Of a DNA stretch of 36,822 nt, positions 3-28,669 are shown in pieces. Location of the stretch: positions 1 to 36,822 of IMG/VR virus record IMGVR_UViG_3300021404_000028; one strand, written 5' to 3'. The notes beneath the pieces are model-generated. The model was not told where the DNA came from. It made no database searches and saw only the letters and a list, made by a program, of their open reading frames with translations. A program made the position numbers and the translations under genes. How positions within the stretch are numbered: position 1 is the first letter of the stretch; each line of letters opens with the position of its first letter. This DNA comes from a virus.

Positions 3-995
3 CAGCAAGAAGGCGCAAGTGAAGTAACGGTGGGAATGGCTTCCGCTTCTAAGGACTTTGCTTTTCAGGTTCAAGCGCTGGGTTCAAGTACTCGTTTTGC
101 TATGATTCAGTACATTGACCCTTTTACTGTGGCAGATATTTGGGGAACTATTTTATCTTCTCTGGTTAAAGCGAGTATCTCAACCACTCATGGAACCACT
201 TGCCGCTTTAAAATGAGATTGATTTGGCGAACAACTTTACCCTCTTCAATTAGTGGAACTGAGCCAATATCTTCATGGGTTGGTTCTGGAGACCCGGTAT
301 TTTCTGCTGGATGGAATGCGGTTGTTCCAAGAAATGACCCTGTTTATACATTTGGATCAACTACCCAAATTTTTCCATTCGAAGGAATGTCTATAGCTTC
401 CGTGGTTCCTTCAACAAGCACTATGACTTTAGGAATTGTTCTTTACACAATAGACCCTATAAGTAACGCATCGACTGCTGATAGCTTGTTCTTTAATCGC
501 ATTTCTTTAGTTCCTAATCAGTTTGCAATTGACTCAAGCATTTTAAGCTTTGATGAAACTTTAAGGCGTTCTCAGTATTATTATGAGACTTCTAAAAACC
601 TATACACTTTGCCTACTGCAAGCAGTGCTGGCGGTGCTGTAATAGCTCATTGTCGTGCGGTACAAGCTGGCGGCCCAACAATACAGGTCTTCCCTTTATC
701 ATTTAGCCTCCAGTTCAAACAAAATAAACGCTCCAATTCTATAAACACAAATATTTATACCTCAGGAGGTACCTTAGGGAATTGTGACATCATTATCCGA
801 GATGGTGGGGCTCAAATTGCTGCCTCTGCAATTAGTTTTACTTTGGGATGGAATGCGCAAAATGGGGGAAATTCAGGACTTCAATTTTTAACGGTCGCGC
901 CTTCTTTCATCTTTAACCCTGGTGGAACCGTAACGAATACGACTGATGCATTTATCTCATTTCACTATACCGCTGATACAAGACTAGGAGTCTAA
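3..995 (+). CDS. Tail fibre/spike protein, C-terminal part (continues from the right edge)
   Basis: The frame is open from base 3, with no stop before it, so the start codon lies outside the left edge; the GTG at 30 has no ribosome-binding site. If the ATCAG shared by both window ends is counted once, this frame continues exactly from the gene that begins at 35707 and gives one protein of about 701 residues. This part is rich in Ser, Thr, Gly and aromatic residues with alternating hydrophobic positions, typical of beta-structured fibre or spike proteins. I see no catalytic motif. The next gene starts 2 bases after the stop. Structural role is inferred from composition, position and the N-terminal half; receptor specificity cannot be read. 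Confidence 0.7.
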   Translation, partial: QQEGASEVTVGMASASKDFAFQVQALGSSTRFAMIQYIDPFTVADIWGTILSSLVKASISTTHGTTCRFKMRLIWRTTLPSSISGTEPISSWVGSGDPVFSAGWNAVVPRNDPVYTFGSTTQIFPFEGMSIASVVPSTSTMTLGIVLYTIDPISNASTADSLFFNRISLVPNQFAIDSSILSFDETLRRSQYYYETSKNLYTLPTASSAGGAVIAHCRAVQAGGPTIQVFPLSFSLQFKQNKRSNSINTNIYTSGGTLGNCDIIIRDGGAQIAASAISFTLGWNAQNGGNSGLQFLTVAPSFIFNPGGTVTNTTDAFISFHYTADTRLGV

Positions 996-3912: not shown

Positions 3913-4655
3913 TATCACCAACTACCCCAATGCTTTTAGCGCTCTCTGGATTTGAACCCGATAAATTATCAACCAACCAACTATTAATTAATCCTGGTTG
4001 GTGCGCAAGTTCTGATGGAAATTCCTTTGCCCAATTAACTTCAATATTAACTTTGGACATGACCCGAAATGGCCTTAATGGATTAGATACCAGCGTGCCA
4101 GAAAATGGAGGAGGCTATTTTGTCTATATAGTCAAAAATGAAACCACTGGTGAAGTAGGTGCCGTCATATCCAATTCAATTATTTATGGAGGCGTGATAG
4201 TTCCCCCAGGATTTACGCTTTATAGAAAATTACGCTTTGGATTTGTCTATAATTCAAATCGGGATGGAATACCGGATTTTCATCTATCAGCATGGCCTAT
4301 GCCTATCATAAGATTAACTGATGCTGAAACAAGCGGAGTTTACAGCGTATTAAATCAAGGAGCCTCAAGTGTATTTACAGATGTCTCACTTTCAGGATTT
4401 ATACCGGACAATGCTAGAATGGCTTATGTCCAATGCATTACTTCCGCCAGCGGTACTGCTGGGTCTGCTTATCTACGCAGTTTTGGCGGCCAAGCGACGG
4501 GATTAATTGTGGGCTCCGCAGCTCCAAATGACCTTCAGGATAGATTATGCCTAACAATGCGGGTAAGCTCAGACATCAAGTTGCAATATAAAACAATTGG
4601 TGGCGCAAAATTAAGTATTTATGTTTTAGGTTATGAGATGACGGAACCAAGTTAA
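3909..4655 (+). CDS. Probable tail-associated beta-structured protein (unknown)
   Basis: 248 residues. ATG 3909 overlaps the previous stop (ATGA), and CAGGAGA lies 8 bases upstream, so the two are translationally coupled. Composition is that of a phage tip protein: many Gly, Ser, Thr and Asn, no charged coils, no membrane segment. The run GGGYFVYIVKN near residue 68 and the C-terminal repeating hydrophobic pattern suggest a beta sandwich. No family is recognised. Being the last large protein of the fibre group, a receptor-binding or tail-tip role is a reasonable guess only. Confidence 0.55.
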   Translation: MISPTTPMLLALSGFEPDKLSTNQLLINPGWCASSDGNSFAQLTSILTLDMTRNGLNGLDTSVPENGGGYFVYIVKNETTGEVGAVISNSIIYGGVIVPPGFTLYRKLRFGFVYNSNRDGIPDFHLSAWPMPIIRLTDAETSGVYSVLNQGASSVFTDVSLSGFIPDNARMAYVQCITSASGTAGSAYLRSFGGQATGLIVGSAAPNDLQDRLCLTMRVSSDIKLQYKTIGGAKLSIYVLGYEMTEPS

Positions 4656-4710
4656 TTTGGTAATGTAATGGAGTACTTTCACACAATTTAATTTACAGGG
4701 AGTAATTTAG

Positions 4711-4932
4711 ATGTCAGATGAAAATAAAGAAGAGCCTCAAGTAAGCCTTTTAGACCAATTCAAACAACAACGTGCCCAGTTCGTTCAGCAAAAAGATTTT
4801 GCCCAAAATAATTTAAATCAATTAATAGGTGCTATTTTTGCCTGTGATTTAATGATTAAAAAGCACGAAGATGAAGCCCTTAAAGAACAAAAATTGCCTG
4901 ATGAAGATGAGTCAATACCCGATGCCGCATAA
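4711..4932 (+). CDS. Small acidic coiled-coil protein (unknown)
   Basis: 73 residues with a strong CAGGGAG site upstream of ATG 4711. Residues 12-60 form one continuous amphipathic helix rich in Gln and Lys (LLDQFKQQRAQFVQQKDFAQ onwards), and both ends are acidic. This resembles small coiled-coil accessory proteins common in phage structural operons. No catalytic or DNA-binding motif is visible. It is the last gene before the endonuclease insertion. Confidence 0.6.
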   Translation: MSDENKEEPQVSLLDQFKQQRAQFVQQKDFAQNNLNQLIGAIFACDLMIKKHEDEALKEQKLPDEDESIPDAA

Positions 4933-15883: not shown

Positions 15884-16347
15884 GCCTCAAAGAATCCTGC
15901 TATAAAATCTACAAACAAGGCCGTGATATGGTGGAGCAATTCAGAGGCGTAGACTTGCAGCCTGAGGTAAGAGAATTTGTAGATACTCAAGAGAGGATAG
16001 CCGAAAGCTATGATCGAAGAAATAAAAATTTTTATTACCGCTGGCTTAATGAAACTTATTTGTTGTTTCGGTTTCATAAAGGTGGCCTTGATGAGTCTAT
16101 GGAAACTATTCAGATTATAGAAACATTTGAACAATTAGTGTCAATTGTTGCCAAGTATTGGGATTCCATATTCACTCAGATAACCATTGAGCCTTATTCA
16201 TACGATGACCGCATAAAATGGGAAACTCAAATCGTTATGATTCATGTTAAGGACAAGAAATACCCAGTGGGCTACTTAAATCGAGAACCTAATAAAGAGT
16301 TTTGGAATATAACACAACAGGGAGAAGTAAATGAAGTTGAAGCATAA
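15880..16347 (+). CDS. Early protein (unknown)
   Basis: 155 residues, ATGA overlap with the previous gene and a 17-base overlap with the SPFH gene. The N-terminal half is helical and charged (REFVDTQERIAESYDRR), the C-terminal half beta-type with aromatic residues. There is no membrane segment. It is directly coupled to the SPFH protein, which may hint at a shared process, but no family is recognised. Confidence 0.55.
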   Translation: MSLKESCYKIYKQGRDMVEQFRGVDLQPEVREFVDTQERIAESYDRRNKNFYYRWLNETYLLFRFHKGGLDESMETIQIIETFEQLVSIVAKYWDSIFTQITIEPYSYDDRIKWETQIVMIHVKDKKYPVGYLNREPNKEFWNITQQGEVNEVEA

Positions 16348-17215
16348 AGTTCAAGCAGGGCTACTTGGTGGCGTAGTTTTAATAGGTGGGAGTAACATAG
16401 CCGCTAATTTAACCAGGGTTCCAGCTGGCTACAGAGGGGTAATCGTAAACCTCTATGGCTCAGACAAAGGGGTTTCCGAGCAATCAGCAGGGGTAGGGCG
16501 CTATTATCTAGGCTGGAATAAAGAAATGTACCTATTCCCAACCTTCCTGCAAAACCGCTCCTGGAATGGCGAGCAAGCAATCACAATGCAGACCTCAGAA
16601 GGACTTACCATCACTACTGACGCGGGTATTACCTACCAAATCGAGCCTGATAATATTGTCAAAGTTTTTACTAAATATCGCTTAGGAATTGAGGAAATCA
16701 CCAATACTTTCTTACACAATATGGTGCGTGATGCTATGAACGAGGTTGCAAGCCAAATGACTGTAGACCAAATTTACGGACTTAAAAAAGAGGAATTCAT
16801 TACCTCAGTCAACAAGATTGTGATTAAAGAAGCTGCGGAAAATGGAATTAATGTTGATAAAATTTACCTTATCGGTAGCTTTGTATTACCTCCCTCAGTC
16901 ATGAACTCCATTAACACTAAAATTGAGGCCTCCCAAAATGCCGTTAAAGTTGAAAATGAAATCGCTACGAGTCGCGCCGAAGCTCAAAAAACCATCGTTG
17001 AAGCCAAAGCCAGAGGACAGCAACAAATCATTGCAGCAGAAGCCAACGCCAAGCAAATTACCTTGAATGCTGAGTCTCAAGCTAAGGCAAATAAAATCCT
17101 TGCTGCGAGCCTCACGCCTGAGTTTGTGCAATACCAAGCCATTCTCAAATGGGATGGTCAATTGCCTAAAACAAACGCCTCAACCGCGGTTCCATTTATT
17201 AACATAGGGAAATAA
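16331..17215 (+). CDS. SPFH/prohibitin (band 7) membrane protein
   Basis: 294 residues, CAGGGAG site 6 bases before ATG 16331. An N-terminal membrane anchor (about 7-25, VQAGLLGGVVLIGGSNIAA) is followed by RVPAGYRGVIVNLYG (29-43), the classic start of SPFH domains. The domain runs to about 195 (TTDAGITYQIE and LKKEEFITSVNKIVI are typical), then a coiled coil rich in Ala, Glu and Lys (AEAQKTIVEAKARGQQQIIA) and a hydrophobic C-terminal part. This is the HflC/prohibitin layout. Bacterial relatives form membrane rings that control the FtsH protease. In this early operon it may alter the host membrane or FtsH activity; that is inference. Confidence 0.9.
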   Translation: MKLKHKVQAGLLGGVVLIGGSNIAANLTRVPAGYRGVIVNLYGSDKGVSEQSAGVGRYYLGWNKEMYLFPTFLQNRSWNGEQAITMQTSEGLTITTDAGITYQIEPDNIVKVFTKYRLGIEEITNTFLHNMVRDAMNEVASQMTVDQIYGLKKEEFITSVNKIVIKEAAENGINVDKIYLIGSFVLPPSVMNSINTKIEASQNAVKVENEIATSRAEAQKTIVEAKARGQQQIIAAEANAKQITLNAESQAKANKILAASLTPEFVQYQAILKWDGQLPKTNASTAVPFINIGK

Positions 17216-17935: not shown

Positions 17936-18193
17936 ATGGATTTTGACGATATAAAACACGAACATAAATTAGTAACAATGTTTGATAATACTGCCATAGA
18001 TGCCATTAAAGACCCCGAAGCTTTAGGCGTGTATACTTATATGAAAATGCTTTTAGATGAGGGAATTACCAAAGGTATGGTCATTTTCCCAATGATTGAA
18101 AAGCAATTTAATATGCCTGAAAAAGAGGTTTTTAGGTTAGTAAAGTACTTAAACAAATTAGGTTTTATGATGATGAGTAAAGAAGAAATTTAG
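17936..18193 (+). CDS. Winged-helix-like small protein (possible regulator or replication accessory)
   Basis: 85 residues, CAGGAAT site before ATG 17936. DPEALGVYTYMKMLLDEGIT (26-45) is followed by MIEKQFNMPEKEVFRLVKYL and NKLGFM, the layout of winged-helix domains at the N terminus of phage replication initiators. The stand-alone domain precedes the initiator gene by about 125 bases. It may regulate or assist initiation. The match is by pattern only. Confidence 0.6.
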   Translation: MDFDDIKHEHKLVTMFDNTAIDAIKDPEALGVYTYMKMLLDEGITKGMVIFPMIEKQFNMPEKEVFRLVKYLNKLGFMMMSKEEI

Positions 18194-19519: not shown

Positions 19520-19720
19520 ATGCAAACTGGCACGGTAAAATGGTTTAATGAAGCGAAAGGGTATGGATTTATTGCATCTGATAACAAAGATTATTTTGTG
19601 TACTTCAGCGAGATTCAAGGAACGGGCTTTAAAACCCTGCGAGAAGGCCAAAAGGTGCAATTCACGGCTGGAACGTCACCTAAAGGCGCTTGTGCGAAGG
19701 AAGTAAGCGTTATTGCGTAG
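19520..19720 (+). CDS. Cold-shock domain protein (CspA family)
   Basis: 66 residues, the normal length of the family. Binds single-stranded RNA or DNA and melts RNA structure. [16 protein letters not shown] (3-18) contains RNP1, and YFVYFSEIQ (25-33) is RNP2; the usual VFVHFS His is replaced by Tyr here, keeping an aromatic stacking surface. [12 protein letters not shown] is the usual C-terminal strand. The gene ends the replication block, and its last 11 bases overlap a leftward gene end to end. Confidence 0.95.
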
Positions 19721-20568: not shown

Positions 20569-21057
20569 TTATGCAGCCCTCAGTTTATTACGCTCTTTCT
20601 CAGTTACCTTTTGACTTCCGTGTGCTGCTCTTATCTCATCCATTGAAAACTTCCCCCTCCCTCTTGATTTATAATCTGCTGGTCTGAAATACCAAAGTTT
20701 CTTTTTAGGCGCCCACATAAAACCCGCTTCTTTCAACCGCTCTTTGTGAGGTCTTGTATCTCCATGCAACCAAATCCAAGCCCCGCAAATCTCAATATCA
20801 AATCCTAGGCCCATAATAGCGTTTAGAGCTGCGTTAATGTCATCCCCGTACCTTTGGGTGCCCTCGGTGTCGATCGCCTCGCCTGTGCATTCCTGTAAAG
20901 CCTCATACGCTAAATTAACTAGCTTCATCATCTCTAAACCTGCTGGATTTCTATCTGGATGATATAAAGAACAGGCTTTTCTATAGGCAGCTTTTACAAT
21001 TTCTGGATTGTATTGGCCGGAAATTCCCAAAATTTTTATCGCGTCATTTATATTCAT
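20569..21057 (-). CDS. J-domain protein (DnaJ-like co-chaperone)
   Basis: 162 residues, AAGAGGA before ATG 21057. The N-terminal J domain (about 3-60) has the invariant HPD at residues 33-35 in SLYHPDRNPAGLEMM, which stimulates DnaK ATPase. No Gly/Phe or zinc-finger region follows. Instead the C-terminal part has CGAWIWLHGDTRPHKERLKE and WAPKKKLWYFRP, a separate conserved module that in other small phage J proteins also follows the J domain. It is the first gene of the second leftward operon. A likely role is to recruit host DnaK to a phage or host target; the target is unknown. Confidence 0.9.
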   Translation of the reverse strand: MNINDAIKILGISGQYNPEIVKAAYRKACSLYHPDRNPAGLEMMKLVNLAYEALQECTGEAIDTEGTQRYGDDINAALNAIMGLGFDIEICGAWIWLHGDTRPHKERLKEAGFMWAPKKKLWYFRPADYKSRGRGKFSMDEIRAAHGSQKVTEKERNKLRAA

Positions 21058-25770: not shown

Positions 25771-26700
25771 ATGGCTACAGAAGTGAGCAATATAGATGAA
25801 TTGTTACTAGGAGGGGGCACGCCATCTACACCACAAGCGCCTGAAAGTAGGTATGAGGAGTCCGAGGAAACAACGCCTGATGTTTCATACGAAGAACCAG
25901 AAGAAACGAGGGAACCCGAGGAACCGAGAGAACCAGATGACCAAAAAGAGACCAGGAGTCTTAAAGATGAGTCCTATGATGAAGAGCCTGAGGCGAAAAA
26001 AGAGCCTGAATACGACGATTATGGGAATACTAAAACACCTTCTAAAACGTATACAGAAGAAGAAGTCAATGAGCGCATCAACAAAGCAATTCGTGAAAGG
26101 CTTGCTCGGGGTAATAATCAGAATCAGCAGCAGCCTACACAGCAGCAAGTGGCACAGCAAGCACAGGGATTTGACTACAACCCAGATTCAGAGGAATCAT
26201 GGGAAATACAGCTAGAAAAGTTTGTCGAAAAAACCGTATCAAAAATTGGTCAAAAGCAAGCACAGCAGCAGCAGCAAGAAAGAGACCAAGCCCATCAAGC
26301 CGAGTTCGAGGATAAATTTACTCGTGGCATGAGTCGCTTTTCTGACTTTAGAGAAGTAGTAGCGTCACAGCCTGTCACAGACCCCATGACCTACGCCCTG
26401 CGAGGATTAACTGACCCAGCTGCTTTTATTTATGCAGCTTCTAAGCGACATCCGACGGAGCTTGCTCGAATATCCCAAATAGCAGACCCTGCAGTCCAGA
26501 TAATGGAGATGGGAAGGCTTGAGGAGCGTATGAGAAAGAGCGCACCAGGTACCAAAGCACCAAGACCCGTAAGCAAAAGCCGTGATGATGCTTCAATGCC
26601 TAGCCCTCAGAAAAAGAAAGAGCCGAGTATTGAAGATTTGATTGCCAAAGCCGATGCTAAGAAAAAAGCGTTATTTAATCAGAAGAGGGGCGGAAGATGA
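25771..26700 (+). CDS. Scaffolding protein
   Basis: 309 residues, CAGGGAG before the ATG. Very acidic N-terminal third (ETREPEEPREPDDQKETR), Gln-rich middle (QNQQQPTQQQVAQQAQG), then helices and a basic, Lys-rich C terminus. This is the composition and place (between portal and coat) of P22 gp8, whose basic C-terminal helix-turn-helix binds coat. It is expected to guide procapsid assembly and leave before packaging. Its end overlaps the DnaB-domain gene by 4 bases. No protease motif is visible. Confidence 0.85.
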   Translation: MATEVSNIDELLLGGGTPSTPQAPESRYEESEETTPDVSYEEPEETREPEEPREPDDQKETRSLKDESYDEEPEAKKEPEYDDYGNTKTPSKTYTEEEVNERINKAIRERLARGNNQNQQQPTQQQVAQQAQGFDYNPDSEESWEIQLEKFVEKTVSKIGQKQAQQQQQERDQAHQAEFEDKFTRGMSRFSDFREVVASQPVTDPMTYALRGLTDPAAFIYAASKRHPTELARISQIADPAVQIMEMGRLEERMRKSAPGTKAPRPVSKSRDDASMPSPQKKKEPSIEDLIAKADAKKKALFNQKRGGR

Positions 26701-27221
26701 GCATGATTATACCAGCAACAGAATCAGAGAAAACAATTTTAGGGGCAATATTGCTTGATAACAGCTCATTAAGAGTAATTTGGGACATTATAAGGCCATG
26801 TGACTTCGCATTTGATTTTCATCAAGCCTTATATGAAGCAATATTTAGGCTACATAAAAAGCACAATTTAGTAGATATTCCCATGCTAATTGATGAATTA
26901 CAAATAGCGCCCCTAGAAGCTTCTTATCTTTATGAATTAGCCAATAAATGTCCCTCAACGAATAACATCAAAGCCCATGCTGAAATTGTGCGAGAAAAAT
27001 CAGTACAAAGGCAATTAGCATCAACAATCAAAGACGTGCATCAACTAATGAAAATTGAAGAGCCCGTGGAAAAACAAAAAGACCTACTTGCAGATTATCT
27101 TGAAGAAGTAGCCGTCAATCTTCGAGAAAATGAAATTGATGACCTTGAGTTAATCTCTTTGTTGGTTGACATCACTAAAGCATTCTCAGGTTCATTGCAA
27201 GTTATGAAGTTTGAAAAATAG
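26697..27221 (+). CDS. Stand-alone DnaB N-terminal domain protein
   Basis: 174 residues, ATGA overlap with the scaffold gene. Residues 5-150 follow the N-terminal domain of DnaB helicases: ATESEKTILGAILLDN, DFAFDFHQALYEAIFRLHKK, IPMLIDELQ, YLYELANKCPSTNNIKAHAE and IVREKSVQRQLAS align in order with E. coli DnaB (there GLMLDN, HRHIFTEMARLQE, YLAELSKNTPSAANISAYAD, IVRERAVVREMIS). The RecA-type ATPase domain is entirely absent: no Walker A, and the gene ends after the linker-helix region. In DnaB this part forms the N-tier collar and binds primase and loaders. The protein may therefore bind or mimic host DnaB. Its place between scaffold and coat is unusual. Confidence 0.85.
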   Translation: MSMIIPATESEKTILGAILLDNSSLRVIWDIIRPCDFAFDFHQALYEAIFRLHKKHNLVDIPMLIDELQIAPLEASYLYELANKCPSTNNIKAHAEIVREKSVQRQLASTIKDVHQLMKIEEPVEKQKDLLADYLEEVAVNLRENEIDDLELISLLVDITKAFSGSLQVMKFEK

Positions 27222-27421
27222 CGCGATTTGACGGAAACCAAATCACGTTGTAAGCTGGTTTCATTGATGTAACAGACGTGTATAGGCTTTCCGTCAGCCA
27301 AGATTTAAGATTTAAAACGTAGTGGCGTGTATTTAGTCTCCCGCCGGACAAATGGTAGTTAGGCACTTAAGCATGATGCTTGAGTAATTAATCAACATTT
27401 GTTCGGTCAGGGAGACTGCAA
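27222..27421 (+). promoter_or_regulatory. Structured 200-base leader of the coat gene
   Basis: No gene. Three foldings are visible. TGACGGAAA (27229-27237) pairs with TTTCCGTCA (27288-27296); GAAACCA (27234-27240) can instead pair with TGGTTTC (27256-27262), so these two exclude each other. A long stem joins GTCTCCC (27336-27342) and GGACAAATG (27346-27354) to CATTTGTTC (27396-27404) and GGGAGAC (27410-27416), capped by an inner near-palindrome at 27365-27385. The coat Shine-Dalgarno GGGAG lies inside the 3' arm. Confidence 0.6.
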
Positions 27422-28669
27422 ATGCCAAATATTTTTCGCGAAACCCAGTACGTTCTAGATGACGTATTTGTACGCTTCTGGAACTCTCTAGCCTTTGCTA
27501 GAACTGCTAATAGAAACCTCGAAGGCGATTTTAAGAACTTAAGATTCGCTACTGGTCAAACAATCGATTATCGTTTAGAAGAACGCTATCTTGCAGGTGA
27601 AGGCGCAACCGCTACAGCCGAAGCTCGTGTTCAGGTAATCAGACCGCTAACAATCTCTAAACAATTCCGCACAATGATTGAATACACAGGTTTTAACCTG
27701 ACTTTCGACCGTGCTAGGGATGAGCCTTATTTAGAGATGGCGAACGCGCCTCGTGCTAAGAGATTAGCAAACTTAGTCGAAAACTTCATTGCTGATACGT
27801 TCCAGACTCAAGTTTATAACTCGGTTGGTACTCCTGGTGTGCCTGTTGACTTCAATACCATATTAACCGCTGATGCTTTAATGACTCAGCTAGGTATTCC
27901 AGAAGACGGTAAACGATTCTCCGGTGTGCCTCCAAGAGTCTCAGCAAACCTAAATAACAACCTATACAACGTCTTCAATAACACTGTGAACACTGGCGCC
28001 TTGATTGATGGCTTTATAGGTCACTTGTCAGGTTTTGACTTCTTTAAAACTAACTTTTTACAAAGACAAATCGCGGGGGCTGGTCAGTTAGGAGGAACAC
28101 CTCCTGCTGGTATGTTGCTTGCGGGTACTGTAACCAATGGCCCAATCGTTGGTGGCAATACAATCTCTGTAACGGGCTTAGGACAAGCTCCTGGAACAGT
28201 GGTATTTAACTTAGGCGACATTATCCAGGTGGCTCCTGCTGCTGGCGTATACGCAGTCAACCCACTGACTTACGAGCCTATTTATGAAGCTCCTGCTCAG
28301 TTCGTGGTAACCGCGCAAGTAATCTCTGCCAACGGTTCAACCGCTGATATCCCTGTGAACCCAACAATCGTTATTGATGGCGCTCGTCAAAACATCTCTG
28401 CTGCTATTCCAAACGGCGCTCAAATGTTGCTCTACGCATCACATAACGTGTCTTTGGCTTATCACACTCAAGCCGTGGTTTTCGCAGCTCCTCCTATCAA
28501 GGAATTGAGAGGCGGTGTTGAAGCGGTAACTCGATACTCTGACCTGTACAAGCTTTCAATGACCTACTCACTCGGTGCGGACATCAGAAACTATGAACAG
28601 TTAGACCGTATTGACGTGATTTGCGGGGTCGCAATTAACCCTGAGTTCGCTGTGATGATTATGTCCTAA
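27422..28669 (+). CDS. Major capsid (coat) protein, P22 type
   Basis: 415 residues (P22 gp5 has 430). ATG 27422 is preceded by AGGGAG. The start, RETQYVLDDVFVRFWNSLAF, and residues 70-110 (ISKQFRTMIEYTGFNLTFDR) match the HK97-fold N arm and long-helix region of P22-type coat. A beta-rich insertion domain is expected near residues 220-340 (PIVGGNTISVTGLGQAPGTV, VVTAQVISANGSTADIPV), as in P22. The C-terminal P-domain ends in DVICGVAINPEFAVMIMS. Builds the icosahedral shell on the scaffold. No proteolysis motif is seen, as in P22. Confidence 0.93.
   Translation: MPNIFRETQYVLDDVFVRFWNSLAFARTANRNLEGDFKNLRFATGQTIDYRLEERYLAGEGATATAEARVQVIRPLTISKQFRTMIEYTGFNLTFDRARDEPYLEMANAPRAKRLANLVENFIADTFQTQVYNSVGTPGVPVDFNTILTADALMTQLGIPEDGKRFSGVPPRVSANLNNNLYNVFNNTVNTGALIDGFIGHLSGFDFFKTNFLQRQIAGAGQLGGTPPAGMLLAGTVTNGPIVGGNTISVTGLGQAPGTVVFNLGDIIQVAPAAGVYAVNPLTYEPIYEAPAQFVVTAQVISANGSTADIPVNPTIVIDGARQNISAAIPNGAQMLLYASHNVSLAYHTQAVVFAAPPIKELRGGVEAVTRYSDLYKLSMTYSLGADIRNYEQLDRIDVICGVAINPEFAVMIMS

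Follow-up and report, generated by a model that had tools for sequence, protein, structure and literature searches.

The leader of the coat gene in this phage is probably (we would put it at about 60%) a cis-acting translational switch, in which the folding of the downstream one (PK2) of two tandem pseudoknots would keep the coat Shine-Dalgarno sequence (SD) open. The basis is sequence comparison, namely the position of the promoter, both pseudoknots, the middle stem, the small hairpin P4 and, in the near clade to which the window belongs, the outer stem of a closed fold. We infer that both folds probably occur in the cell and set translation, and infer likewise the direction of control and its trigger. 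The compact RNA element is found in about 140 related phage leaders, at the predicted mRNA start of the most abundant virion protein, and is absent from Rfam. It would give a defined handle on the timing of capsid synthesis in tailed phages. As a naturally occurring two-fold RNA that is strongly supported by comparison, it would also be a test case for pseudoknot gating of ribosome access.

Elements of the coat gene leader

The window (the whole stretch of DNA that was analysed, 36,822 nt) is a 36.8 kb virus record, and the leader lies upstream of its coat open reading frame (ORF; Table 1). An ORF of 174 aa with a DnaB N-terminal-like domain (26697-27221) lies between the scaffold and coat genes. 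We dropped it as a partner of the leader, because no more than 2 of the 44 relatives' records had a match to it. An upstream ORF within the leader was also rejected: the ATG within PK1 S1 of many relatives is ACG in the window and in others, and is thus not conserved. Elsewhere the phage encodes a cold-shock protein (CSP, 19520-19720), a DnaJ-domain protein (20569-21057, minus strand) and an SPFH/Band 7 protein (16331-17215).

Table 1. Positions in the window of the predicted leader elements and the coat gene
Feature	Position	Strand	Evidence
Predicted sigma70-type promoter: -35 TTGACG (27228-27233), 17-nt spacer, -10 TAAGCT (27251-27256)	27228..27256	+	aligned motif in relatives
PK1: S1 GACG:CGTC (27275-27278 with 27292-27295), motif TGTA (27279-27282)	27275..27299	+	motif scan, coevolution
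PK1 S2: GGC(T):(A)GCC	27285-27288 with 27296-27299	+	coevolves in relatives
PK2: S1 GGCG:CGCC (27324-27327 with 27342-27345), motif TGTA (27328-27331)	27324..27349	+	motif scan, coevolution
PK2 S2: GTC:GAC	27336-27338 with 27347-27349	+	coevolves in relatives
5′ arm of closed-state outer stem (anti-SD), GTCTCCC	27336..27342	+	folding; near-clade coevolution with SD-to-AUG strand
Middle hairpin: GGACAAATG (27346-27354) with CATTTGTTC (27396-27404)	27346..27404	+	folding and coevolving middle stem
P4: small hairpin CGGTC-(AGGGA)-GACTG, SD in loop (open state)	27404..27418	+	covarying stems in relatives
3′ arm of closed-state outer stem, GGGAGAC, includes SD	27410..27416	+	folding
Major capsid (coat) protein gene, P22-like, 415 aa	27422..28669	+	phrog_283, E 1.2e-36

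PK1 is a compact H-type pseudoknot and was the top-scoring plus-strand match in the motif scan of the window. PK2, downstream of it, has the same NGUA motif and the same signature of a C before S1b. The layout of the unit is S1a-NGUA-L1-S2a-(2-4 nt ending in C)-S1b-(0-1 nt)-S2b, and few residues outside the stems are invariant.

A long imperfect stem with an inner hairpin spans 27334-27418. The original prediction was that GTCTCCC with GGGAGAC and GGACAAATG with CATTTGTTC pair in one such stem, and folding bore this out. The minimum free energy of 27330-27430 was -45.4 kcal/mol, compared with -20.3 +/- 3.3 kcal/mol for shuffled sequences (z = -7.7), and none of 200 shuffles was as stable. Within the middle hairpin, 27365-27373 pair with 27377-27385 as an inner stem. 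The coat SD (GGGAG, 27410-27414) was rightly placed in the 3′ arm, but its distance from the ATG at 27422 is 7 nt and not about five.

The same prediction took the coat start to be occluded, which holds for the predicted folds of the window and of most relatives. The predicted probability that the SD is unpaired in the window was about 0. Pairing of the SD with PK2 at P>0.5 was predicted in 77 of 87 near-set leaders and 47 of 51 distant leaders, a result that is partly expected since the pseudoknot motif itself has CC before S1. However, the long hairpin alone is not the conserved object. The tandem pseudoknots and a hairpin that places the SD in its loop draw in part on the same strands and show wider conservation. 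It had been missed that the 5′ arm is the loop of PK2 (27336-27342 overlaps the 5′ strand of PK2 S2, the PK2 loop and the first C of S1), that PK1 lies upstream, and that the SD can alternatively lie in the loop of a small conserved hairpin.

A promoter inside the loop of the long hairpin, which the original prediction named as a refuting case, was not supported; the one predicted here precedes the 5′ arm. The motif TTGA[C/T]-16..18-TAnnnT was aligned in 77 of 82 near-clade leaders, compared with 1.4% of shuffles. In 60 of these 77 promoters the -10 box ends 6-7 nt before PK1, so that, by the usual promoter spacing, near-clade transcription would start at the first bases of PK1. The distance is 18 nt in the window's subgroup, where the predicted start is about 11 nt upstream of PK1, and the -10 box of the window itself is a weak match. 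Distant-clade leaders have a NATAAT-like -10 box, often 6-9 nt from PK1 (44/54, compared with 20% of shuffles). Tandem CCGAATTCGG palindromes, which have the look of operator sites, were seen upstream of the -35 box in L075, L077, L161 and other leaders.

Conservation and coevolution of the two folds

Eighty IMG/VR loci with coats 81-100% identical were collected, and more were added by pattern scans and by a query with a distant coat. In total, 146 distinct leaders were extracted and fitted, with coats about 60-100% identical. All but two of the pattern-scan matches were just upstream of a coat gene; the exceptions were L127, which matched by chance within a coding region, and L117, truncated at the contig end. 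Automated fitting found both pseudoknots in 136 of the 146 leaders but in only 1-2 of 146 dinucleotide shuffles. When both NGUA motifs were required, the counts were 125 leaders and 0 shuffles. Model R1, which includes a few spurious pairs and served for copy-finding only, gave one confident copy, before the coat gene, in 31 of 32 records searched, and the best match in the most divergent record had an E value of 0.58. No convincing further copy in the same genome was found with R1 (4638-4713 of the window scored 13 bits and a site in G029 18 bits). A GATGAGTA site at 18172 was set aside because it sits at the end of a coding frame.

Coevolution was surveyed in 108 non-redundant leaders by comparing the pairing of a leader's own strands with that of strands exchanged between leaders. 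Such swap tests are blind to phylogeny, so the near and distant clades were also run separately as a partial answer. All four pseudoknot stems paired better with their own partners (PK1 S1, z = 12.5; PK1 S2, z = 19.0; PK2 S1, z = 13.7; PK2 S2, z = 8.6), as did H_in (z = 10.4), P4 (z = 6.4) and H_out, the outer stem (z = 5.5), and unrelated control pairs showed no rise. The middle stem (P3), supported here as H_in, reached z = 10.7 in another test. PK2 S2 hardly varies in the near clade (z = 1.4) but does so in the distant clade (z = 9.1). In an alignment made from sequence only, standard pairs filled 90.5% of cells, and 123 cells had double changes, compared with 40.5 after shuffling and 12-36 after sliding. 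The variants include GGG:CCC, GCAAG:CTTGC, GACAG:CTGTC and CGTAG:CTACG in PK1 S2; GACG:CGTC, GGCG:CGCC, AGCG:CGCT, TGCG:CGCA and GGAG:CTCC in PK2 S1; and TTGTTC:GAACAA, GTAC:GTAC, GCAC:GTGC, GAC:GTC, TGTTCA:TGAACA and others in P4.

The 3′ strand of PK2 S2 (S2b) pairs with both S2a (z = 13.9) and the strand A′ before the SD (z = 6.8), and the control pairing of S2a with A′ was null. The comparison thus points to two conserved folds that exclude each other, one with the SD hidden and the other with it exposed, and H_out coevolves in the near clade only. Similar strands could mimic coevolution of the outer stem by transitivity, and we therefore stratified the test by fixing the S2a core and the tetramer after the SD. 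In the near clade the signal persisted (z = 3.5, 0/10000). In the distant clade the swap test gave z = 1.6 and the stratified tests were null. The covariation proposed as a check on the long hairpin was accordingly found in the window's clade but was weak or absent in the distant one. A stricter test of PK2 loop 1 (L1) against the SD-AUG spacer alone was weak (z = 1.9), and in a wider version the reversed-sequence control reached 2.3. Since the distant clade did not pass the stratified test and the L1-only test was weak, we claim conservation of the SD-hiding stem for the window's clade only, and it may be a near-clade feature.

By nearest-neighbour sums, which have no pseudoknot term, the closed fold is lower than the open fold by about 17 kcal/mol in the window and by 3-13 kcal/mol in other leaders. 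The leader could therefore be static rather than a switch, and the open state would have to depend on the order of folding or on a bound factor. When growing prefixes were folded, the PK2 S1 hairpin and the middle stem preceded the emergence of the SD, and the full hairpin followed.

The proposed switch and its rivals

As a switch, the leader would work as follows. Transcription would start at or just upstream of PK1, and the mRNA of most relatives would begin with PK1 and then PK2. In the open state, PK2 would be formed and its loop tied up, and the downstream strand would fold into P4 with the SD in the loop. Closing would follow from downstream pairing of the strand after PK2 (GGACAAATG with CATTTGTTC), which would take the 3′ strand of PK2 S2. 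PK2 would then open, and its freed loop and the 5′ strand of S2 would base-pair with the SD and with the nucleotides between it and the AUG. Anything that stabilises the two pseudoknots, be it the order of folding during transcription or a bound factor, would promote synthesis of the coat.

In one particular version of this switch, the two like pseudoknots would be tandem aptamers, which bind a ligand or protein (coat, scaffold, a ribosomal protein or a metabolite) cooperatively, so that occupancy of PK2 sets access to the SD. We regard it as a tentative possibility. The NGUA and C-before-S1b signature shared by PK1 and PK2 while their stems vary, the tandem arrangement and the overlap of PK2 with the anti-SD are all consistent with it, and the T4 gene 32 mRNA pseudoknot, a protein operator, offers a precedent (PMC3014915). 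On the other hand, invariant residues outside the stems are few, there is no Rfam match, and no ligand is known. It is doubtful, though conceivable, that the leader represents a new class of tandem-pseudoknot riboregulator, in which two small 5′-end pseudoknots of like design would be cooperative sites for a phage or host factor or a metabolite and PK2 occupancy would decide SD opening and so time capsid synthesis. The pseudoknots might instead be stabilisers, with PK1 at the 5′ end and PK2 shielding the coat mRNA from 5′-end-dependent decay and the pairing of the SD being secondary. The near-clade promoter spacing, which puts PK1 at about +1, fits this, as does the topology, in which a hairpin loop pairs with the 3′ flank 0-1 nt away. 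This topology recalls exonuclease-resistant RNAs (xrRNAs) of RNA viruses, compact pseudoknots that are sometimes tandem. However, xrRNAs reside in RNA virus genomes and stop a 5′-3′ exonuclease, whereas the present element would be at the 5′ end of a DNA phage mRNA in bacteria. Stabilisation seems unlikely, as it leaves the covarying SD-in-loop hairpin and the coevolving SD-hiding stem unexplained and does not suit the predicted start upstream of PK1 in the window's subgroup. Moreover, the sole bacterial genome record with a related phage contig (the putative host) has RNase E/G but no RNase J (TIGR00649) match over the cut-off.

Another reading is an RNA thermometer, or a hairpin opened by the phage cold-shock protein, the candidate named in the original prediction. 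Of 44 relatives' records, 29 had a CSP gene. Nearly all of the closest (25 of 26) were among them, and it is in this clade that the outer stem coevolves, but the correlation is phylogenetically confounded. The 15 coat-group records without a CSP match comprised 14 more distant ones and one shorter near-clade record, with loci in the same coat group. Because of these 15, the phage CSP cannot be the universal partner of the leader. A thermometer would have to melt physiologically, and a hairpin of -45 kcal/mol is presumably far too stable for that. We consider either version improbable. Least probable of all is a simple long hairpin without switching, for example an RNase III processing site: it would account for the long, near-continuous duplex in the window, but not for the pseudoknots, the double pairing of S2b or P4.

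Relation to known elements and phages

In Rfam 15, no match to the leader was found at the gathering threshold or at E<=1-5 in the window and the loci of 17 relatives; int-alpA matches to L290 and L023 were on the minus strand and were not counted. Literature searches on pseudoknot leaders of phage coat genes gave no relevant result. Among known elements, the closest are the T4 gene 32 pseudoknot operator and the pseudoknot riboswitches; the leader is somewhat like the latter but does not belong to their families. The gene 32 leader pseudoknot of T4, T2 and RB69 is the translational operator of gp32 (PMC3014915), and the present leader likewise has a phage mRNA-leader pseudoknot upstream of the start codon. 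Gene 32, however, has one pseudoknot and an unstructured A+U-rich tract to the ribosome site (PMC3014915), whereas the present leader has a pair of like pseudoknots and precedes a coat gene, its SD is structured and has an alternative fold, and no repressor is known. In operators of the gene 32 type, the A+U-rich tract is bound cooperatively by the product of the gene itself. Between PK2 and the AUG of the present leader, the predicted structure is a strong hairpin or P4 rather than such an open tract. In the preQ1 classes, small pseudoknots lie near the SD and access to it changes with the fold (PMC11625349). The leader shares small pseudoknots near the SD and a predicted fold-dependent access, but differs in the lack of an Rfam match, in tandem pseudoknots without the SD inside, in having no known ligand, and in preceding a capsid gene rather than a metabolic one.

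No close DNA relatives were found among named phages. Cultured P22-like podoviruses (for example Rhodoferax phage P26218, Vibrio phage VvAW1, Xanthomonas phage PBR31 and Vibrio phage 41E34.2) have a P22-like coat about 26-29% identical, which follows a scaffold-like gene as here. Their coat gene begins only 20-59 nt after the preceding gene and there was no R1 match in those loci; thus, the leader seems to belong to the uncultured clade of the window.

Some related loci had further features. The sequence before the coat start of L293 looks like a group I intron 3′ end, and the coat matches of L256 and L300 exceed the usual length by about 250 nt, which suggests that the coat gene carries insertions there. 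L161 (BMAG01000039.1), a related phage contig of 36.5 kb, belongs to an assembly with the name Gammaproteobacteria bacterium BBSC-SA01, which is a possible hint of the host.
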